Source: Halococcus qingdaonensis | GTDB taxonomy: Archaea > Halobacteriota > Halobacteria > Halobacteriales > Halococcaceae | DNA length: 64,000 nt | Assembly (NCBI RefSeq): GCF_024508235.1 | Contig: NZ_CP101943.1 | Coordinates: 2,081,112 to 2,145,111 of the forward strand | Reading direction: 5' to 3' | Part shown: one piece after another, positions 49,003 through 53,655 of the stretch | Numbering within the stretch: position 1 is the first letter of the stretch | Layout of the letters: each line of letters starts with the position of its first letter | Program-made: the position numbers and the translations under genes | The notes under the pieces: generated by a model | The model's database searches: none | Seen by the model: only the letters and a program-made list of their open reading frames with translations | Told to the model about the DNA's origin: nothing

Positions 49003-50010
49003 GTGAACCAACTCGTCGACGGGGAGTGGCGGACCGACATCTACGAAACGACGAACGACGACGGAGAATTCGACAGAGAGGAGACCAGTTTCAGGAACTG
49101 GGTGAAAGCCGATCCCGACGCGGAATTCCCGGCCGAGGCGGGGCGCTACCATCTCTACGTCTCCTATGCCTGCCCGTGGGCACACCGGACGCTCGTGACG
49201 CGCGCACTACGCGGCCTCGAGGACGTCATCTCGGTCGATATCGTCGATCCCTACCGCGAGAACGACGGCTGGCAGTTCACACCCACGCGCGAGGGCGCGA
49301 CGACCGACTCGCAGAACGATTTCGACTACCTCCGGGAAACCTACGTCGCGGCCGATCCCGATTTCACGGGTCGCGTGACTGTGCCCGTGCTCTGGGACAA
49401 AGAAAAGGAGACCATCGTCAACAACGAATCCGAGGAGATCATGCGGATGCTCGACACGGCCTTCGCGGAGTTCGGCAACGACGTAACCCTCTATCCCGAG
49501 GGCTATCGAGAGGCGATCGACGAGACCATCGACGCCATCTACGATCCCATCAACAACGGCGTCTATCGGGCAGGCTTCGCCGACACGCAGGAGGCCTACG
49601 AGAACGCCGTCGGCGATCTCTTCGACGCGCTCGACCACTGGGAGGGAGTGCTCGCCGACCAGCGCTATCTCTGTGGCGACGTCCCCACCGAAGCCGACGT
49701 CGCCATGTTCACGACGCTCGTCAGGTTCGACGATGTCTACCATACCCACTTCAAATGCAACGTCCGAAAGATCGCCGAATATCCCAACCTCTGGAACTAC
49801 CTGAAGGAGCTCTACCAACTGCCTGGCGTGGCCGACACGGTATGGATGGACCACATCACGGAACACTACTACGAGACCCACACCGACGTCAATCCGAAAG
49901 GCATCGTCGCCGTCGGTCCCGATCACGATTTCGACGCCGACCACGATCGCGATCGGCTGGCCGGTGGGCCGCCCGAGGAACTTCGGCAGACCACCTCGAC
50001 CGCCGACTGA
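49003..50010 (+). CDS. Glutathionyl-hydroquinone reductase-like (Xi-class GST) protein
   Basis: A 335-residue thioredoxin-fold plus helical-domain protein of the YqjG/ECM4 type. YHLYVSYACPWAHRTLVTRAL near residue 46 carries the catalytic Cys of CPWA. VNNESEEIMRMLDTAF near 138 binds the thiol gamma-Glu group, and YLCGDVPTEADVAMFTTLVRFD near 222 marks the C-terminal domain. The family reduces glutathionyl-hydroquinones; haloarchaea lack glutathione but make gamma-glutamylcysteine, so the thiol partner probably differs. GTG at 49003 (VNQLVDGEWR) is the family-like start and has a promoter box 27 nt upstream. Confidence 0.88.
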   Translation: MNQLVDGEWRTDIYETTNDDGEFDREETSFRNWVKADPDAEFPAEAGRYHLYVSYACPWAHRTLVTRALRGLEDVISVDIVDPYRENDGWQFTPTREGATTDSQNDFDYLRETYVAADPDFTGRVTVPVLWDKEKETIVNNESEEIMRMLDTAFAEFGNDVTLYPEGYREAIDETIDAIYDPINNGVYRAGFADTQEAYENAVGDLFDALDHWEGVLADQRYLCGDVPTEADVAMFTTLVRFDDVYHTHFKCNVRKIAEYPNLWNYLKELYQLPGVADTVWMDHITEHYYETHTDVNPKGIVAVGPDHDFDADHDRDRLAGGPPEELRQTTSTAD

Positions 50011-50149
50011 GGCCCCGTCGCAAGCAATCGACCGCTACGTGCTGCGAAAACAGTTCGCTGCGGCGTCGATACACCACCTGAACCCGCCAGACACATCAAA
50101 ACACCTCATCAGCGGAGAGCACCCGTCTGCAATCATCGCGCTGTAGCGG

Positions 50150-52408
50150 CTAGTCGCCAAACAGTCGAGCAAAGAATCCACTGGATTCGTCCTGTACCTC
50201 GTCAGACTGCGTGGAGTTCATGCCGACTGCAGCAGTACCGTTGAGAAGATCTTCGACTGAATGCCCTATCCACTCGGCGAATTCCACAGGGGCACCGATG
50301 TAGACGCTGGTAGCGGATTTCTCGGACATGAACCGTTTGGGCAGGCGCTTCTCGTAGTCATACACTTCGTATTCTTCGCGGTCGAAGTCAGCGGTGATCG
50401 CGCCGGGTTCGGATGCGAACGTAATGCGACCACCCTGAATATCACGCTGCCATTTCAGACGCCCCGTGTCGTACGTTTTCTCGGCCGGTTCGTCGGCAGG
50501 GAAATATTCGGGCTGCGGTCGGTCGGCTTCGTCGTAGAACTCGCGGAAGATCTGCCGAACGTCTTCGATGGTTCCGTGCGAATCGGTCCACGGTCGCTCG
50601 GTGAGCATCCGGCGGGCGACGTAACTGAAGATCGGGTTCCGGCGCTCCAGCACGTTCGAAAGGTCGTCTTGGGCTTCATGGAACCCCGGATCTTCCGGAT
50701 TGGACGGGAAGGAGACGTCCATATTCAGGATCTTCATTCGGTTGCGGAACTCCGATGTCGGAAGCGCGTCGTTCGTCGTGAAAATCAAACAGGGTTGATC
50801 GACACTGGTTGGCATCCAGTCGCTCCAGTAGTTTCGGATCGGACTCCATCCATGGAGTTTCTCCTTCTCCGCATCGATGATGGCATACGGGAAGCTAGTG
50901 TCCCACTCACGGATACCGCGGATCGCCTTGACACCGATCTCGTCCGCGTCGACTCCTGAGATAACCGTATTGTCGGAGATGAGCCGAAGGATGTACTCGG
51001 TGAGCTTGTCCTTCCCGGCGTCGCTCTTCCCCTCGATGTAGAGGTGTTGAAGAACGTTGTCAAGCGTCCGTGACGGCGACGACAAGGCCTCGGCGTACTG
51101 ATTGGCGAACGGAGCCCAGAACCCATAGAGGAACGCTTCGTACATCTTTGCCATCACTGCGGTCTCGGATTGCGTGTGGCCGTGGTTTTCGACGGTCTCG
51201 ATGTATTCCTCGATGGTTTCGAGGCAGTGATTCAGGACTCCGGATGTCGGATCCTCGGTGGCGACGAGGATCATCTCGTCGTCCTCTCCGATCACGATCT
51301 GTTCGGCCTCTGGAAGAACCGACATCGTCGGAATGGCCGTCGACTCCCTGACCTGGTTGTTGTACGCACTCAGCGGCGCGACGATGCTATGATCTTCGAC
51401 AGTGCCACCGCGGTTGCGAAGACCGATCCCGAACTCGTCGGCGACGTCCTTGTCGACCGTGCTCGTACCCATCCGTATCTTTTCCTCGGGTGCGCGGACC
51501 CGCGGCCGGTCAAGCGTGTCAGTCAAGCCCGTCTCGTGGGCCGATTCAACGAGCCCGACCTCCGGTGGTTCTGCGGTGCTGTCAGTCGTCTCGGAATGGT
51601 TCTCGTCGGTCGAATCGTCGCGCTCGGTGATATTCCGGTCGGCGTTCTCGGGTCCTTCGACGAACGCGACAGTCTCAGCAGCCTCCTCTGGATCATCGAC
51701 AACTGCGGTGATCCGATCAGCGACAGCTTTCAGATCCTCGACCGCATCCCGATTCAGAGCGGCTGTGTCGCTCATGTCGAGGTCACCGGCACCGACCCAG
51801 TACTCGATACGATTTTCCCGCTCTTGAGGCGAGTCCGCCCCCGCGATCGCTTCGACCAAGCCTTCGAGGAGCGTTTGATCGCTATACCTCTCCCGATACT
51901 CGTCGATGAACGTCTCGAACGCCTCGTCGAACTCTGTCCCGATGTCGGTCGTGAAAACGGAGATCTGGTTGGTATGATACTCCCACGAGTTCCGCGAGAG
52001 ATTCGCTGACCCCTGCACGAGTTTTACCGTGTCGTCCGGCATGACGATCCGATAGATCTTCGAATGTACGGTCTTGCGATTCTTCAACCGAATCACGAGA
52101 CGATCGTCTTGGCGCAACTGGACGAGTGAGCGGGCCGTCGAAACCTCGTTGACGTGATCCGCGTAGTTGTCGGCGTTCCCGATGAGCACGTCCAGCGATC
52201 CGACGCCGTACTCCGTCAGCATCGTCACCATCAGCTCGGGCGTCTCGGCGTACGTCACAGCGTCCACGTGACGAGCACCCTCGAATAGATCGAGAAAATC
52301 AGCTCGTTGCTTTACCATCTCCAAGCGGTATCCGGCGGCACCTGGGCCGTAGAACTCCGGCATATCGGAAAACCTATCGAACGAGATAGTCGCTGTCAGC
52401 TTATCCAT
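50150..52408 (-). CDS. Fusion of PLD-family nuclease domain and P-loop (SF3/AAA+-like) ATPase
   Basis: A 752-residue two-domain protein. Residues about 1-180 form a phospholipase-D-superfamily domain: H115-x-K117 in TVHSKIYR and G133-S-A-N-L-S in VQGSANLSRNSWEYHTN. A low-complexity acidic linker spans about 235-310. Residues about 370-640 contain a Walker-A-like G460-x4-G-K466-D467, a Walker-B-like YAIIDAE (508-514), and LIFTTNDALPTSEFRNRMKI (541-560), whose Asn and Arg resemble sensor-1 and arginine-finger positions of viral SF3/D5-type ATPases. The start is set at MDKLTATISF because a TTATTC box lies 27 nt before it; an ATG at 52510 adds 34 poor residues. GC is about 52% in 60 counted bases (50161-50220), below neighbours. 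It is a candidate defence or mobile-element ATPase-nuclease. Confidence 0.7.
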   Translation of the reverse strand: MDKLTATISFDRFSDMPEFYGPGAAGYRLEMVKQRADFLDLFEGARHVDAVTYAETPELMVTMLTEYGVGSLDVLIGNADNYADHVNEVSTARSLVQLRQDDRLVIRLKNRKTVHSKIYRIVMPDDTVKLVQGSANLSRNSWEYHTNQISVFTTDIGTEFDEAFETFIDEYRERYSDQTLLEGLVEAIAGADSPQERENRIEYWVGAGDLDMSDTAALNRDAVEDLKAVADRITAVVDDPEEAAETVAFVEGPENADRNITERDDSTDENHSETTDSTAEPPEVGLVESAHETGLTDTLDRPRVRAPEEKIRMGTSTVDKDVADEFGIGLRNRGGTVEDHSIVAPLSAYNNQVRESTAIPTMSVLPEAEQIVIGEDDEMILVATEDPTSGVLNHCLETIEEYIETVENHGHTQSETAVMAKMYEAFLYGFWAPFANQYAEALSSPSRTLDNVLQHLYIEGKSDAGKDKLTEYILRLISDNTVISGVDADEIGVKAIRGIREWDTSFPYAIIDAEKEKLHGWSPIRNYWSDWMPTSVDQPCLIFTTNDALPTSEFRNRMKILNMDVSFPSNPEDPGFHEAQDDLSNVLERRNPIFSYVARRMLTERPWTDSHGTIEDVRQIFREFYDEADRPQPEYFPADEPAEKTYDTGRLKWQRDIQGGRITFASEPGAITADFDREEYEVYDYEKRLPKRFMSEKSATSVYIGAPVEFAEWIGHSVEDLLNGTAAVGMNSTQSDEVQDESSGFFARLFGD

Positions 52409-52431
52409 ACGGAGAACAACGGACTGGAGTG

Positions 52432-52438
52432 AATAAGT
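52432..52438 (-). promoter_or_regulatory. Putative TATA box of the PLD-ATPase gene
   Basis: CTTATTC on the minus strand lies 24-30 nt before the ATG at 52408. The 200 bases upstream are unusually A/T-rich and include CCCCAT-CTCAAT-ATGGGG at about 52504-52521, a small inverted repeat that could bind a regulator. Confidence 0.45.
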
Positions 52439-52626
52439 CCATGCCTGTATTACTCTCACATGAAGATAGATGTGTTTCGTTCTCACACACGAGTACGAAA
52501 GCACCCCCATCTCAATATGGGGTATTATCTATTCTCTATTTCAAAACCGCCACACATCTCGGGAATAATCGAGCTTCGAGTTTGAATATTTGAGTGGAAA
52601 AATCATATGTACCACGAGGGCCGACG

Positions 52627-52840
52627 ATGGGTGAATCAGGTCGGAATTCGTAGACGGAGCGTACGAGTGGGCGTGAGCGCGTCAGGCACGTCGTGGAGCT
52701 GTTGGAGGAGCCCACCCCGGTGCAGACGATCGCCGACCGCGCGGAAGTTTCGCGTGCAACCGCCGACGACGAGCTCGAGCATCGGCTCACGGAGCTGAAG
52801 GAAGACGTCAATGATTTCAGGTATGATCCCTTTCCGCTTC
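52627..52840 (+). pseudogene. Decayed HTH transcriptional regulator (DUF7342-like)
   Basis: Pieces of one protein lie in different frames: EFVDGAYEW from 52644, then RERVRHVVELLEEP and PVQTIADRAEVSRATADDELE from about 52672 onward in another frame. Together they read like the N-terminal helix-turn-helix of haloarchaeal DUF7342-type regulators, with stops and frameshifts before and a truncated end after DDELE. It is therefore a gene remnant, next to the tRNA-Phe fragment ladder and upstream of the PLD-ATPase gene. Confidence 0.6.
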
Positions 52841-52896
52841 GGATTTGGATCGGAGGAGACGACAGTTCATTCGCTCATGTGTCGTCGGCAAAACGA

Positions 52897-53120
52897 GTGC
52901 CACCTCCGGGTTTGAGCCGAAGGAAGACGTGCCACTCTCTTCGCTCGTTACGCGTGACTTCCACAGTTCAAATCCGTCCGGTATTCCTTCTCGACCGTTC
53001 GCGTCGCTCACGGTCTCGAAGTATGCCGCCTCCCGGATTTGAACCGGAGCAAGACGGTCCTGCTCGTTCGCCTCACTCACAGTACGGGCTGCGACTTGCG
53101 GGGTTCAAATCGCGGTCCGA
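52897..53120 (-). repeat. Ladder of tRNA-Phe 3'-end fragments
   Basis: Four partial copies of the tRNA-Phe T-arm/acceptor region begin near 52897, 52957, 53023 and 53090, before the intact gene at 53183. The copy at 53023-53047 is identical over 25 bases to 53182-53206. The other three are degenerate but keep TTTGAGCC or TTCAAATC cores. Steps are about 60, 66, 67 and 93 nt. Spacers share words like GTTCGCGTCGCTCAC. No gene lies in this stretch. Confidence 0.75.
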
Positions 53121-53182: not shown

Positions 53183-53256
53183 TGCCGCCTCCCGGATTTG
53201 AACCGGGGACAGCTCGATCTTCAGTCGAGTGCTCTCCCAGTCTGAGCTAAGGCGGC
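53183..53256 (-). tRNA. tRNA-Phe (anticodon GAA)
   Basis: A 74-nt cloverleaf. Acceptor GCCGCCT pairs with AGGCGGC, anticodon stem CTCGA/TCGAG encloses CTGAAGA (anticodon GAA), and the T-arm is CCCGG-TTCAAAT-CCGGG. The discriminator is A. Its 3' end is the parent of the fragment ladder downstream. Confidence 0.96.
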
Positions 53257-53624: not shown

Positions 53625-53655
53625 TGGACCCCGGCGGAGTCGAATCGCCCTCGAT
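53625..53655 (-). other. Degenerate copy of the tRNA-Val 3' end
   Basis: TGGACCCCGGCGGAGTCGAA and the following bases match the start of the tRNA-Val 3' region at 53694 with a few changes. The copy starts 69 nt downstream of the tRNA 3' end and lacks the 5' half of a tRNA. Confidence 0.6.

Follow-up and report, generated by a model that had tools for sequence, protein, structure and literature searches.

The window analysed here, a 64,000-nucleotide stretch of DNA from Halococcus qingdaonensis, contains an intact open reading frame of 752 amino acids on its minus strand, running from an ATG at 52408 to 50150. An in-frame ATG further upstream, at 52510, is not supported as the start; relatives begin at the position equivalent to 52408. 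The product (50150..52408, minus strand) combines a PLD nuclease with an SF3-like ATPase and is placed in the AgaP family below. The PLD nuclease module comprises residues ~20-180 (51869..52351) and is recognised by Pfam matches, a predicted fold and an invariant motif, with H115 and K117 at 52066-52058 and G133-N136 at 52012-52001. The SF3-helicase-like P-loop ATPase module, supported by hhalign comparison with a DUF5906/SF3 set, comprises residues ~385-640 (50489..51256). It contains a Walker A motif, G460-x4-G465-K466-D467 (51008..51031), a Walker B-like strand, YAIIDAEK, that includes D512 (50864..50887), and the sensor-1 or SF3 motif C residue Asn546 together with Arg557 (50738..50776). 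All of these features lie on the minus strand.

An earlier note on this DNA had described an H-x-K/GSANLS motif, Walker-A-like and Walker-B-like motifs, an asparagine sensor and two downstream arginines. All of these are present, and they are conserved in 87 relatives: residues H115, K117, S134, N136, G460, G465, K466, N546, R557 and R618 are identical in every one of the 87 aligned non-identical sequences. Position 512 is aspartate in 85 of the 87 and glutamate in the other two, and the Walker B strand reads VVDDI in relatives and FIDEI or LIDEV in the bacterial ones. Judged from the alignment, the conservation of both motif sets exceeds chance by far. The aspartate at the end of Walker A, for which the same note had asked an explanation, is found in 43 of the 87 relatives, which form the clade of the window protein and its sister clade; 42 have glycine at this position and two, both bacterial, have threonine. 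Since the residue at 467 follows clade, Asp467 is a property of the clade and does not reflect damage. Its reading as a dead P-loop was set aside, as the aspartate is invariant across the clade and the position also varies in SF3 proteins (GKS, GKG), although the P-loop may still be inactive. Comparison of the window gene with four relatives gave dN/dS values of 0.06-0.08, indicating that the window copy is under purifying selection.

The Pfam families RE_NgoFVII and PLDc_2 matched the window protein weakly and were present in 20 of 21 relatives, while Tyr-DNA_phospho matched 13 of 21 members. The N-terminal fold predicted by AlphaFold from an alignment of 28 close relatives contained many blocks with pLDDT values of 65-87, and the best fold matches of the predicted PLD part were the NgoAVII R-protein and SauUSI. 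In this prediction the window protein shows the PLD fold with HxK and GSxN that characterises the PLD superfamily. A PADLOC match to PbeA was weak and confined to the PLD part, and was rejected as the identity of the protein; PHROGs and NCBIfam searches with the window protein gave no match. Family and motif together suggest that the N-terminal PLD domain cuts DNA.

The C-terminal half had no Pfam match of its own. A family profile of the ATPase region was aligned by hhalign with the haloarchaeal DUF5906 SF3 helicases over 124 columns (probability 80%, E 1.5e-5), and this alignment spans Walker A, Walker B, the motif C asparagine and then the arginine, in SF3 order. Control comparisons gave 22 columns for AAA (probability 16%), 26 columns for HerA (2%) and 19 P-loop columns for Rad50/SMC (66%); the reversed SF3 profile scored 0.2% and 30 column shuffles scored 0.5% or less. 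The probability alone is moderate, and the SF3 assignment rests on the alignment of all motifs in order. The AlphaFold model of the C-terminal domain, from the alignment of the 28 close relatives only, had a pLDDT of 34 and no C-terminal fold. The proposed joining of a PLD nuclease to an ATPase was therefore borne out by Pfam, profile comparison and the PLD fold match. Of the wider label SF3/AAA+-like that had been given to the second half, the SF3 part stood and the classical AAA part did not, the profiles placing this half nearest to SF3 helicases.

The gene lies in a region of lower GC content, 54-60% at 50-53 kb compared with ~65% in the surrounding DNA. A TATA-like TTTATT-type box is located at 52431..52438 on the minus strand, ~25 bp before the ATG, and aligns in most relatives, where it is kept ~25-30 bp before the ATG. 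DNA homology to relatives ends ~36 bp upstream of the ATG and at the stop codon, and the gene thus has its own promoter region. The region extending from a GST-family gene to the tRNA-Phe scar region forms a variable island (49974..52992): the sibling genomes G009 and G003 retain both the GST-family gene and tRNA-Phe, and ~800 bp of other DNA takes the place of 49974-52992. The tRNA-Phe gene that anchors the site is at 53183..53256 (minus strand), and an exact 25-nt duplicate of its 3' end, an integration scar, is at 53023..53047 (minus strand). In four relatives from other families (L038, L056, L059, L060) the PLD gene lies 2.5-9.5 kb after tRNA-Phe in the same orientation. The replacement DNA of the siblings and these four linked relatives identify the site as a tRNA-Phe hotspot with exchangeable cargo.

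Several further features were observed around such sites. At the corresponding GST/tRNA-Phe site of G009 (L179:2579-3179) there is a PIN-domain gene resembling a toxin, together with an AbrB/MazE-like gene. An HVO_2833-like HTH gene and a nucleotidyltransferase-like gene (291 aa) at L031:3979-5811 resemble an AbiE-type toxin-antitoxin pair, and pairs of this type adjoin tRNA-Phe in several relatives. In the window, a diverged copy (80%) of 25 nt of tRNA-Val is present at 53625-53649, 69 bp away from that gene, and may be a second integration scar.

The gene was found in 94 of 391 genomes of the class, but 17 other genomes of the family to which the window belongs all lack it. Identity to the best-matching haloarchaeal relatives is 82-85% across the full length, while core GAPDH in the same genomes is only 60-80% identical. 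The accessory island and tRNA-Phe scar recognised in the earlier note are thus upheld by the exact 25-nt copy, the patchy spread, an identity higher than that of a core gene and the sibling genomes with other DNA at the site, and the universal core homologues that it had named as grounds for refutation were not what was found. Taken together, the sequence comparisons identify the gene as a one-gene cassette that moves horizontally and carries its own promoter. Searches of viral contigs and of viral and phage collections returned no relatives, and within the phylum outside Halobacteria only PLD parts inside other proteins, mostly of >800 aa, were found. Full-length-type relatives beyond the phylum occur in Arcobacter, Athalassotoga and Lactobacillus. 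Plasmid-borne bacterial PLD-ATPase genes were observed at L082:11041-13134 (Arcobacter), L083:9035-11029 (Athalassotoga) and L140:8950-11148 (Lactobacillus); the Arcobacter and Athalassotoga proteins have a canonical GKT Walker A.

The window protein is 29.8% identical, over 92% query coverage, to a protein encoded on a plasmid of Natrinema pellirubrum (Np). In the Np protein H105, K107, E112, G119, S120, D122, G157, S158 and N160 all occur at the positions named in PMC11442185, with a Piwi gene 68 bp upstream of the gene that encodes it. Because these nine residues fit and a Piwi gene adjoins, the Np protein is identified as AgaP, the nuclease of the pAgo-AgaP (APAP) system. By itself this protein is lethal in H. 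hispanica; its toxicity depends on the PLD residues H105, K107, G157, S158 and N160 and is suppressed by pAgo (PMC11442185). AgaP is required for plasmid restriction; it also boosts immunity to HHPV-2, with viral DNA suppressed by APAP and no noticeable abortive infection (PMC11442185). Only an N-terminal PLD domain is described for AgaP in that paper, in which the words ATPase, Walker and AAA are absent. Aligned with the window protein, however, the second half of Np AgaP reads GESNGGKGTF ... VVDDITK ... FISND ... FRNR. The view that no described system has this order of modules is therefore wrong at the family level, since Np AgaP is the same two-half protein. In this alignment AgaP-family proteins share a conserved SF3-like ATPase, which appears to be undescribed.

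The two proteins come from the same host class and have the same two modules and all catalytic motifs, with homology over both halves and the catalytic H, K and GSxN at H115, K117, G133, S134 and N136 of the window protein. There are also clear differences between them. One is that HxK and GSxN are separated by 49 residues in Np AgaP and by 15 (K117 to G133) in the window protein, which lacks the HxK(x)~49GSxN spacing; the long insert is present only in alignment rows near Np AgaP. Another is that Walker A ends GKG in Np AgaP and GKD in the window protein. By sequence, the window protein can be assigned to the AgaP family if this is defined broadly, without the long spacing, and its gene falls in a GKD clade whose members mostly occur without pAgo. 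While APAP has a pAgo partner, the window protein belongs to a solitary or cassette-associated clade and its genome has no pAgo. The locus has no long-A pAgo in the same operon, and as a Piwi search of the whole genome gave no match it is not an APAP locus. The genome has a single NurA gene, distant at 1.17 Mb, so that with no Piwi match the window copy is solitary. Its own neighbours are ordinary genes, and no antitoxin-like gene was seen beside it.

Many relatives adjoin pAgo, usually at a distance of 20-140 bp, and others adjoin a five-gene cassette of Mre11, Rad50/SMC, NurA, a ~235-aa protein (x) and HerA. The PLD gene precedes the cassette, co-directionally and with gaps of 185-224 bp, in L075, L076, L086 and L108, follows it co-directionally with gaps of 97-118 bp in L052, L053 and L130, and is convergent with it in L031, L034, L035, L047 and L057. 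A 13-kb co-directional run of pAgo-PLD-Mre11-Rad50-NurA-x-HerA (L071:6542-19520) is the most complete form of the system proposed below. The cassette lies beside the gene in 11 of 31 loci of close relatives and is absent beside the window copy. NurA of the cassette type (at least 63% identity) was found in 25 genomes, in 13 of which an AgaP-family gene lies within ~12 kb (P ~5e-22 under naive random placement, a model that ignores the clustering of defence islands). On a quickly built family tree that has some long branches, the pAgo and cassette labels form clusters, requiring 5 changes compared with a mean of 12.6 for shuffled labels, and none of 200 shuffles gave a value as low. The cassettes are themselves accessory, with a patchy distribution in a minority of genomes. 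Methyltransferases are also among the neighbours of relatives, and the neighbours of other solitary copies match methyltransferases, GajB, DRT helicase, CARF and candidate defence families.

From this gene order, Mre11-Rad50-NurA-x-HerA is probably a new partner set of the AgaP family; in the limited literature covered, no text was found that joined HerA/NurA with pAgo or SF3 with PLD defence. The survey of neighbours suggested in the earlier note thus returned defence genes and supports its nucleic-acid defence reading. Its one-gene system holds for the window genome, where the copy is solitary, but not for the relatives that are often beside pAgo or the cassette. Near the loci with the cassette it was also observed that 14 tRNA genes are present at L052:15757-19538 and four in L053, possibly as part of a large mobile element with a tRNA array, and that the interval from the PLD gene to the HerA cassette repeatedly contains two conserved genes (387 and 252 aa; L034:12309-14304) with no convincing Pfam match.

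Among other known systems, the ATP-dependent type IV restriction enzyme SauUSI also contains an N-terminal PLD nuclease, with a matching fold, and an ATPase motor in one chain. SauUSI has an SF2 helicase motor and a C-terminal modified-base reader, and no sequence homology was found between its motor and that of the window protein; the likeness is one of working principle and not of motor descent. NgoAVII and CglI pair a nuclease with an ATPase and have a sequence-specific DNA-binding domain. The NgoAVII R-protein is the best PLD fold match, but the DEAD-family helicase-like subunit, as described for CglI, is a separate protein, unlike the single chain of the window protein. The DUF5906 SF3 helicases of haloarchaeal mobile elements, which have a replicative role, share the P-loop, Walker B, motif C asparagine and following arginine over the 124 columns; no PLD domain was noted in them. 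The canonical archaeal HerA-NurA-Mre11-Rad50 set serves recombination repair, whereas the accessory version that recurs beside the AgaP family has the additional ~235-aa protein and is patchy.

The protein could instead be a DNA-end repair or clean-up enzyme working with Mre11-Rad50-HerA-NurA, for example a TDP-like PLD enzyme removing blocked ends, and not a defence nuclease. The end-resection cassette adjoining relatives, the annotation of several relatives as tyrosyl-DNA phosphodiesterase and the Tyr-DNA_phospho matches described above are consistent with such a role. The gene is patchy and horizontally moved, however, the cassettes are accessory, the best fold matches are restriction enzymes, and the same family beside pAgo has shown anti-plasmid activity, so that an end-repair role is unlikely. 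SF3 domains are characteristic of the replication proteins of plasmids and viruses, and a protein that replicates or maintains a mobile element would use its SF3 motor as the replicative helicase and its PLD domain as a processing nuclease. Several relatives are plasmid-borne, and the Arcobacter relative adjoins ParA/ParB near a replication initiation gene. Such a function appears highly improbable for a chromosomal single-gene cassette with homology confined to the gene, recurring partners that are defence or end-processing genes and no relative in viral contigs or phage records.

The protein could also be a self-poisoning (abortive or addiction) effector, its restraint lifted by infection, rather than a nuclease with selective clearance of invader DNA as its function. 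On its own, Np AgaP kills H. hispanica, and a sibling genome has the PIN/AbrB pair at the same site, but APAP suppressed viral DNA without noticeable abortive infection (PMC11442185) and the window copy has no antitoxin-like gene seen beside it, making self-poisoning very unlikely. The identity to Np AgaP of only ~30%, the C-terminal pLDDT of 34 and the ordinary neighbours in the window count against defence. With these taken into account, the window protein is probably a defence nuclease of the AgaP family that acts against the DNA of plasmids and viruses.

As such a defence nuclease, the protein would cut DNA with its N-terminal PLD domain, the equivalent residues of Np AgaP being needed for activity in cells. 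The SF3-like P-loop domain is likely to assemble on DNA, possibly at ssDNA, forks or ends, and its binding or hydrolysis of ATP would gate or move the nuclease. In many relatives a partner would restrain and aim the nuclease; this partner is the long-A pAgo, as shown by others for Np AgaP, or may alternatively be the adjacent Mre11-Rad50-NurA-HerA end-processing set. Because the toxicity of Np AgaP is unchecked when pAgo is missing, a lone copy requires some other form of control, and the solitary window copy would have to control itself or rely in trans on the single HerA-NurA of the host or on some other factor. The gene spreads horizontally, as a single-gene cassette that includes a promoter. 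More tentatively, AgaP-like PLD-SF3 nucleases may serve a modular defence system as its common effector. In it, pAgo and the accessory Mre11-Rad50-NurA-x-HerA would be alternative or joint partners, supplying the ATP-gated nuclease with guided breaks or resected ends, and the solitary clade would be autonomous.

The apparently unreported ATPase motor in AgaP, a studied pAgo effector, would help to account for the restraint and targeting of a toxic nuclease. Through its four end-processing proteins, the probable partner set could connect guided DNA interference with end resection, and the plasmid clearance reported without the catalytic centre of pAgo itself becomes testable through one Walker-A mutant.
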